The notes beneath the pieces were generated by a model that worked only from the letters and a program-made list of their open reading frames with translations, did not search any database and was not told the DNA's origin. This document shows positions 26,680 through 29,257 of a stretch of DNA of 63,693 bases, one piece after another (the first letter of the stretch is position 1; each line of letters opens with the position of its first letter). The stretch covers positions 1 to 63,693 of the forward strand of contig CAMBEL010000006.1 of assembly GCA_945865605.1 (NCBI GenBank), given 5' to 3'. Source of the stretch: Bifidobacterium breve. Its GTDB lineage: Bacteria > Actinomycetota > Acidimicrobiia > IMCC26256 > JAENVU01. Both the position numbers and the translations under genes were made by a program.

Positions 26680-27395
26680 TGCTCACCTGCGATTTCGATC
26701 GTCTCGAACTTACGCACGGCGACTGCATCCTTGACATGGGTTGCGGCGGCGGGCGTCATGCATTCGCAGCGATGAAGCGCGGCGCGCGCGTAGTGGCACT
26801 CGATTATTCAGAGGGTGAGCTCAAAGACGTACGGGCCACTGTCGCCGCCATGGATCAAGCAGGAGAACTCGAACCCGATCTTTCCTTCGGGACAATCAAT
26901 GGCGATGCGCTGAAACTTCCGTTTGCCGATGGGAGTTTCGATGCTGTCGTTTGTTCCGAGGTCCTTGAACACATCTGGGACTTCCGGGGCGCGATCAAAG
27001 AACTAGTCCGAGTACTGCGGCCTGGGGGCAGGATGGCCGTAACGGTTCCAACTAGATGGCCAGAGCGCGTGTGCTGGGCACTTGACCCCGATTATCACAA
27101 CAGCCTCGGTGGGCATGTTCGCATCTTCCGTCAACATGAACTCGAGCAAGAACTTGAGAATTCTGGGCTCTGGTTGCGGGGGTCCCATCACGCGCATGCC
27201 CTGCACTCGCCATACTGGTGGATCCGTTGTGCTGGTGGGGTCAACGAGCCAGATAAGCCAATTGCTCGCAAATACCATGATTTCCTTTCTTGGCAGATCA
27301 TGAAAAATCCGCGATGGCTCGCCTCGGTCGATCGTCTGCTCAATCCTGTGCTCGGTAAGAGCTTGGTGATCTACACGCAGAAGGTGACGCCGTGA
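26679..27395 (+). CDS. Class I SAM-dependent methyltransferase
   Basis: GDCILDMGCGGGRHAFAAMKRGARVVALDYS...FDAVVCSEVLEHIWDFRGAIKELVRVLRPGG; TAATG overlap with GT4. Confidence 0.88.
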   Translation: MLTCDFDRLELTHGDCILDMGCGGGRHAFAAMKRGARVVALDYSEGELKDVRATVAAMDQAGELEPDLSFGTINGDALKLPFADGSFDAVVCSEVLEHIWDFRGAIKELVRVLRPGGRMAVTVPTRWPERVCWALDPDYHNSLGGHVRIFRQHELEQELENSGLWLRGSHHAHALHSPYWWIRCAGGVNEPDKPIARKYHDFLSWQIMKNPRWLASVDRLLNPVLGKSLVIYTQKVTP

Positions 27396-28510
27396 GCATG
27401 AATGCCGCGCCTCTCGGTGTCGACGACATCCTGTCCAGCGACCAAATTCTCGAAACGGTTGATGCGATCGCTGCGATCCAAATGCCTAATGGAAACATCC
27501 CATGGATTCCAGGCGGTCATACCGACCCGTGGAACCTCGTCGAAGCAGCGATGGCTTTGGACGTCGGCGGCCGTCATGACGAAGCGCGCCGCGCGTACGA
27601 GTGGTTACGGGATATTCAAAATCCTGATGGGTCGTGGCACGCGTATTACATCGGCAACGAAGTGAAGGACGCCACCCTCGATACCAATGTCGCGTGCTAC
27701 ATCGCGACTGGCGTGTGGCACCACTACCTAGCGTCCGGCGACAGCGCGTTTCTGAGTGAATTCTGGAACAGCGTCGAGCGCACGATTGACTTTGCACTAG
27801 ATCACCAGACAAGTACCGGCGAACTGGCATGGCGAGCCGACGACCCAGACGACGGGGCACTGTTGACCGGCTCATCGAGCATTCACCACTCAATCCGGTG
27901 CGCGATCGCAATAGCGGAACGGCTTGGTCATGAACGGCCAGACTGGGAACTATCTGTAGGCGCGTTAGCGATCGCAATCGCACATCGTCCGGAACGGTTC
28001 TTGGACAAAGATCGGTGGGCGATGGATTGGTACTACCCGGTCCTTGGTGGAGCGTTAAGAGGACCGAGCGCACAAGCGAGAATTGCGTCACGTTGGGAAA
28101 CGTTTGTCGTCAAAGGGCGCGGCGTGCGCTGCGTCTCTGACCAACCGTGGGTGACTGCAGCTGAGACGTGTGAACTGGTAATGGCGCTGGACGCGATCGG
28201 TGAAACCGACCAAGCCCGCGAACTCCTGTCGTGGGTGCAGTTCCTCAGACATGAGGACGGAAGTTACTGGTGCGGGATGAACTTCGACGGTGACGCATTC
28301 AACGAGATGGGCGCGTACTTCACCGAGGATCAACCAACATGGAACTCGGCTGCGGTGGTGTTAGCGGCGTATGCGCTGGGCAACGACGGGCCAGTGGCAG
28401 GCTTGTTCCGCGGCGAGGGATTGCCGGTTGGTCTGAGCCCCGATGAGTTGATTGCAGCGGGGGTCGAGATCGAGAACGAAGCACGGTCGGTTAGACCGGC
28501 TGTCGACTAA
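27392..28510 (+). CDS. Alpha/alpha-toroid protein, often annotated prenyltransferase-like; candidate glycoside hydrolase (MmpH/GH188-like by context)
   Basis: Repeated helical-hairpin motifs: AIAAIQMPNGNIPWIPGGHTDPWNLVEAAMAL, YEWLRDIQNPDGSWHAYY, LSWVQFLRHEDGSYWCGMN; GTGA overlap with upstream MTase. Confidence 0.7.
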   Translation: MSMNAAPLGVDDILSSDQILETVDAIAAIQMPNGNIPWIPGGHTDPWNLVEAAMALDVGGRHDEARRAYEWLRDIQNPDGSWHAYYIGNEVKDATLDTNVACYIATGVWHHYLASGDSAFLSEFWNSVERTIDFALDHQTSTGELAWRADDPDDGALLTGSSSIHHSIRCAIAIAERLGHERPDWELSVGALAIAIAHRPERFLDKDRWAMDWYYPVLGGALRGPSAQARIASRWETFVVKGRGVRCVSDQPWVTAAETCELVMALDAIGETDQARELLSWVQFLRHEDGSYWCGMNFDGDAFNEMGAYFTEDQPTWNSAAVVLAAYALGNDGPVAGLFRGEGLPVGLSPDELIAAGVEIENEARSVRPAVD

Positions 28511-28520
28511 CCCACGACCT

Positions 28521-28588
28521 GTTTCAGCGCTGAATCTGAGCACCAGGGTGCCCCGTTTCAGCGCTGAATCTGAGCACCAGGGTGCTCA
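28521..28588. repeat. Two-copy tandem repeat (34-bp unit) with internal dyad symmetry
   Basis: GTTTCAGCGCTGAATCTGAGCACCAGGGTGC at 28521 and 28555; each has palindrome TTCAGCGCTGAA and inverted repeat GCACC-AG-GGTGC. Confidence 0.9.
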
Positions 28589-28639
28589 ATTCGCGTGTCG
28601 AAACATCTGGTAGCCGTGTCGAGTGCCTCGCTGCGCAAC

Positions 28640-29257
28640 TCATCTCCTTAGCGTGCGGAGGCTTCCCTTATCGCCGACCGGCATAAACCCGTCTTCGATG
28701 GCCCTCTGCCATACCCAGAATGGTCCCTGACCTCCATCTGCGGCATCCTTGAACACGTCATGAATCGCCAACATTCCACCTGACGCCACAAAGCCAGCCC
28801 AGATCTTGTAGTCCGTCATTGCAACGTCTTCGGCGTGACCCCCGTCGATGAATAGCAGTCCAAGAGGCGTGGACCAATGCGCACCGACCGTGGCTGAGTT
28901 ACCAAGCACTCCGACAACAGCGCCTTCAAGGCCAGCATCTTCGATCGTCTTACGAAAGAAGGGAAGCGTGTCCATCCGTCCGGTGCGCGCATCAACCAAC
29001 TCGGCATCGTGGTGTTCCCAACCCGACTGATTCTCCTCAGAACCATGGTGGTGATCGACAGAAAACAGAACAGTCCCGCACTCCCTCGCCGCAGTGCCCA
29101 GATAAACCGCCGACTTGCCACAGTACGAACCGATCTCAAGGAGCGGCCCGACATTGCCCGCACTCAGTCCGACTTCGTGCAGGGCAAACCCTTCGTCGTC
29201 TGGCATAAATCCCTTCGCAGCTCGCGCCACTTCAAGCGTGAGTGGATCAATCGCCAT
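28640..29257 (-). CDS. Class I SAM-dependent methyltransferase, TylF/MeT1-like
   Basis: GPLLEIGSYCGKSAVYLGTAARECGTVLFSVDHHHGSEENQ...LLFIDGGHAEDVAMTDYKIWAGFVASGGMLAIHDVF. Confidence 0.85.
   Translation of the reverse strand: MAIDPLTLEVARAAKGFMPDDEGFALHEVGLSAGNVGPLLEIGSYCGKSAVYLGTAARECGTVLFSVDHHHGSEENQSGWEHHDAELVDARTGRMDTLPFFRKTIEDAGLEGAVVGVLGNSATVGAHWSTPLGLLFIDGGHAEDVAMTDYKIWAGFVASGGMLAIHDVFKDAADGGQGPFWVWQRAIEDGFMPVGDKGSLRTLRR

Follow-up and report, generated by a model that had tools for sequence, protein, structure and literature searches.

The window, i.e. the whole stretch of 63,693 nucleotides analysed here (contig 6 of an assembly of 2.15 Mb that is 86% complete), contains two convergent genes whose 129-bp spacer is mostly filled by a directional, two-module repeat element. 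A first-pass annotation had placed a tandem repeat in this spacer, between ORFs at 27392-28510 (plus strand) and 28640-29257 (minus strand), and we recovered the same arrangement; of the names it gave to the two genes, methyltransferase agreed with a PF13578 match, and "toroid" found no counterpart in Pfam. The features are as follows.

27392..28510, plus strand: upstream convergent gene of 372 aa, without a Pfam match at 1e-5, and with a stop codon that ends 11 bp short of the element.
28522..28603, minus strand (5' to 3' from 28603 to 28522): whole two-module element, 82 bp, delimited by comparison of 17-20 genomic copies.
28556..28603, minus strand: 48-bp core, TTTCGACACGCGAATTGAGCACC-CT-GGTGCTCAGATTCAGCGCTGAAA, scoring 76.4 bits with model R1, in which one outer pair was misplaced, and 73.8 bits with R3, which like R2 is a corrected model.
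28592..28603, minus strand: conserved asymmetric left end TTTCGACACGCG; TTTC and ACACGCG are invariant in 17/17 copies of alignment A1.
28522..28555, minus strand: second 34-bp module, a duplicated unit whose number is not constant from species to species where a site is shared.
28574..28585: core dyad, GCACC-NN-GGTGC.
28540..28551: second-module dyad, GCACC-NN-GGTGC.
28557..28568: 12-bp palindrome TTCAGCGCTGAA of the core.
28523..28534: second occurrence of the 12-bp palindrome TTCAGCGCTGAA, at the element's right end.
28640..29257, minus strand: downstream convergent gene for a methyltransferase (PF13578), with its stop codon 36 bp away from the element.

Two exact 34-bp units lay head to tail at 28521-28588 (TRF: period 34, 100% match, score 130), and both dyads that had been described for them were present: within the window, the 12-bp palindrome occurred at 28523 and 28557 only, and the exact GCACC-AG-GGTGC dyad, GCACCAGGGTGC, at 28540 and 28574 only. 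The annotated interval, although it held a real and exact repeat, was too short and missed 15 bp of the left end. On the minus strand, the left end TTTCGACACGCGAAT carries the element out to 28603, so that the natural unit is 28522-28603. This 82-bp element was directional, with a core whose ends were asymmetric (left TTTCRACACGCG, right AGCGCTGAAA) and one extra 34-bp module, which follows the core on the minus strand and reads CGGGGCACC-CT-GGTGCTCAGATTCAGCGCTGAAA. Two different palindromes alternated at a regular 17-bp step, and the modules followed one another head to tail instead of forming inverted REP pairs. Some copies shared a right-hand tail (GATGGTCGTTGGG in four, CAGG in others), which may be part of the element, and we take its outer right limit as provisional.

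That the unit had no further copies held true for the window; the genome, however, holds about 18-20. The left-end pattern TTTCRACACGCG-NN-TTGAGCACC gave 18 genomic matches at ≤3 mismatches, vs 0 for the reversed control pattern, and covariance models returned about 20 elements, half of them with one module and half with two. In 19 of 20 copies, the core GCACC-NN-GGTGC dyad was centred on AG or CT, a single dinucleotide seen from one strand or the other. According to our own codon-based gene calls, a gene 3' end lay within 45 bp of 18 of the 20 copies, and the spacers were convergent for nine, co-directional for eight, divergent for two and ambiguous for one, with a tRNA gene (tRNA-Sec, tRNA-Ser) flanking two of the nine convergent copies on one side. 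Convergent spacers were overrepresented with respect to the gene pairs of the window (9/20 vs 10/61; binomial p = 0.0025, Fisher p = 0.012), including when the background was limited to spacers >40 bp (p = 0.03). This placement is that of published REPs, which lie mostly in convergent or co-directional ORF spacers and often <20 bp from 3' ends (PMC3733652). The neighbouring genes (LepA, RecR, a sigma factor, MTHFR, acyl-CoA dehydrogenases, thiolase, carboxyltransferase and others) had unrelated functions, and no common function was seen among them. One element was preceded, about 50 bp upstream, by the selenocysteine tRNA gene (L073:3707-3800), and another adjoined a short tandem array of GCGAGTGCCGT/T-type 10-11-mers (L072:4240-4310) that was absent from the aligned orthologous stretch of a close relative (G001).

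Outside its own genome, the element had a narrow distribution. R3 was positive in 4/296 genomes sampled from the class and in 4/58 genomes of the order, filters dropping weak matches in these large searches, and all four carriers belonged to one family of Acidimicrobiia: the genome under study (G000), G001 (Acidimicrobiia assembly Baikal-deep-G23) and G002 represent one genus, and G004 another genus of the same family. An exact pattern scan of genome contigs matched G001 as the sole relative, and neither viral contigs (exact patterns) nor plasmids (distant search) gave a match, so that a phage or plasmid carrier is not indicated. The repeat was not described in the literature searched, of which coverage was partial, and Rfam matched nothing in the window, nor the elements at seven further loci.

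The copies were not only present in relatives, but located at the same sites. G001 has the element at nine of them, with about 79-95% identity in the flanks; three sites are common to G002 (about 71-87% identity in the flanking proteins), and G004 has three among its eight fetched copies, orthology in G002 and G004 being assessed by blastp because simple gene calls on these high-GC loci were unreliable and were left unused. Both L161 copies of G004 corresponded to both L072 copies, along with three syntenic genes (identity 42-70%). L160 of G004 corresponded to L073: the sigma-factor gene next to it is 93% identical, though the other neighbour is not the same. Since L160 and L161 lie outside R2, the model that found them, their orthologous location is independent support for homology. 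Orientation agreed at the sites shared with G001 and at all six shared with G002 and G004, and module number had changed at three shared sites (L073/L102, L074/L113 and L070/L112). The genome-wide and relatives search proposed by the first-pass annotation thus revealed other copies, and these were conserved.

Several copies had nonetheless disappeared from G001. The window site was mostly lost, with the right end ..GCTGAAACAGGTCGTGGG remaining, and the L071 and L076 sites were reduced to remnants, with the one at L076 truncated at the midpoint of the palindrome; these remnants indicate that the copies are older than the split and that deletions within or adjoining the hairpin removed them. The L064 site was a clean absence, which could be a deletion or an insertion. 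The loss of the window copy and of several others in so close a relative makes an essential role unlikely. In G002, the L071-orthologous spacer (L126:1620-1760) had no element and contained a hairpin-rich stretch of another kind, CGCTCGCTTCGCTCGCG, which may represent a further repeat family of G002.

The window copy was predicted to fold strongly on both strands (-42.5 and -43.1 kcal/mol; z = -4.6 and -5.0), as was the two-module copy at L073 (-62.7 kcal/mol, z = -8.4). Folding was weak for the three single-module stretches tested (z = -0.7 to -2.2), with no or slight gain over shuffles. Of the cells in alignment A3 (41 copies from 4 genomes), 89.8% were paired, vs 29-45% with slid partners. 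Moreover, the G004 stem reads CGCGACC/GGTCGCG in place of TGAGCACC/GGTGCTCA, with both sides changed at four stem pairs; these changes may represent one ancestral change common to all G004 copies and therefore count as few events. The asymmetric folded hairpin led us to consider an integron attC site, whose end boxes are GTTRRRY/RYYYAAC; the end boxes of the element look unlike these, and this candidate was set aside.

Taken together, these data point to a small REP/BIME-type family of dispersed palindromic repeats, confined to one Acidimicrobiia family, of which the window contains one copy; we assign this reading a probability of about 0.72. Of the three possibilities raised by the first-pass annotation (bidirectional terminator, REP/BIME-like element, duplicated protein-binding site), the REP/BIME-like one is the best, on account of dispersed palindromic copies at gene 3' ends with a variable number of modules. 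Its suggested association with a RAYT was not borne out: PF01797 (RAYT/Y1_Tnp) was not found in the own genome or in any of the seven family genomes searched, which are mostly incomplete, while control genomes were positive. The element resembles RAYT-associated REP/BIME/REPIN sequences in being short, dispersed, palindromic, often doubled and located beside 3' ends and in convergent spacers, with an imperfect bulged hairpin and a lineage-specific sequence type. It differs from them by the absence of PF01797 from its family and of a GTAG tag from the aligned cores, by its 48-bp core and 34-bp modules, by sites shared between genera and by its copy number (about 20 at 86% assembly completeness, vs usually >100 for REPs), although small REP families exist too (PMC3733652). 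CGTC-tagged REPs are also palindromes at gene 3' ends without a dedicated transposase, some of their families being as small, but they belong mostly to alpha-Proteobacteria and have an 8-9 bp stem flanked by CGTC and a CCA-like tail (PMC3733652); compared with that description, no CGTC/TGTC tag directly beside the stem with a short CCA-like tail was present in A1 or A3. Since RAYT, GTAG and CGTC tags, U-tracts and a terminator-scan call were all lacking, we class the element as REP/BIME-like by behaviour but outside the RAYT-REP family. Against this reading stand the few copies relative to classical REPs, the absence of RAYT and GTAG, and the fact that no clear insertion event was seen; moreover, site conservation across genera would equally be shown by a functional element.

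Such a functional element could be a bidirectional terminator or 3'-end stabiliser, in which a hairpin on each strand past the stop codon ends or protects the converging transcripts and the function keeps the sites. The enrichment in convergent spacers, the nearness to gene 3' ends, the copies downstream of tRNA-Sec and tRNA-Ser genes, the strong folding of two-module copies on both strands and the maintenance of sites across genera are all consistent with it, and a both-strand hairpin in a convergent spacer is what known bidirectional intrinsic terminators have. Unlike these, however, the element has no U-tract at either end (its flanks lack T runs on both strands), was not called by a terminator scan, and in its single-module form folds at or slightly above the level of shuffles; several copies have gone in G001 with no obvious replacement, and termination requires neither a long conserved common sequence nor a preserved left/right asymmetry. 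We therefore consider this explanation possible but doubtful. A putative binding site for a DNA protein (gyrase, nucleoid or domain-boundary) that co-evolves with the sequence it recognises would explain the genome-specific spelling. It is also consistent with the long conserved asymmetric sequence, the likeness of copies within a genome and the location in convergent spacers, which accumulate supercoils, and it has a precedent in BIMEs, which are known to bind proteins of these types (PMC2817692). As it would demand parallel paired changes at many unlinked sites, with no binder known and several sites lost in G001, we regard it as unlikely.

The near-identical dispersed copies with imperfect inverted ends, non-coding as in Correia-type repeats and other MITEs, and the clean absence at the L064 site of G001 could also suggest a MITE-like element that is still moved by a present-day transposase. 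Contrary to this, no target-site duplication was recognised at the L064 empty site, no partner transposase was identified (PF01797, the sole transposase profile searched, being absent from the family), and the old shared sites and remnants indicate age, so that this account appears quite improbable. As for a chance local tandem duplication with no wider meaning, the head-to-tail doubling of the 34-bp unit is its one argument; it is refuted by the genome-wide copies (0 with the backwards control) and by the presence of the unit at orthologous sites in relatives, and we give it virtually no credence.

Under the preferred REP/BIME-like reading, the copies would have been spread in the past by a trans-acting enzyme, which was not a RAYT, or has since been lost, or was missed. 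Afterwards, they would have been inherited in place, with sequence exchange between copies keeping each genome's set alike, and they may have been tolerated because they lie just past gene ends, where a host role of the hairpins in ending or protecting transcripts is possible as well. REP-like repeats are usually explained by RAYT copying; here, a family without RAYT in the genomes checked has few copies, with sites and orientation common across genera and a genome-specific sequence. It offers a small, countable case of how short dispersed repeats stay alike, and of whether hairpins between convergent genes serve the host.

The genome-specific spelling was apparent from sequence comparison at orthologous sites, where cores of G000 and G004 were 56-63% identical, vs a mean identity of 85% among copies within G000 and 83% within G004. 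In addition, G000 variants were shuffled among copies, all four combinations being found at 67/78 variable-column pairs, a count that recurrent mutation can inflate. This pattern looks like concerted evolution of the copies within each genome: exchange between copies, or turnover in place, best accounts for conserved sites whose spelling is specific to the genome, and the alternative is a binding factor that co-evolves with them. We tentatively raise, without favouring it, a stronger version in which low-copy 48-bp hairpins have been fixed at gene ends for the age of the family, with all copies of each genome re-spelled together; if true, it would imply active conversion between tiny unlinked repeats, or a trans-acting factor co-evolving with the sites, without RAYT.

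The left/right asymmetry of the core (TTYCGACRCGCG vs AGCGCYGRAA) was kept in the G004 copies other than the one at L162. This copy (L162:2948-2995) was a perfect 48-bp palindrome, its left arm being the exact complement of its right arm, the outcome expected if one arm had converted the other.
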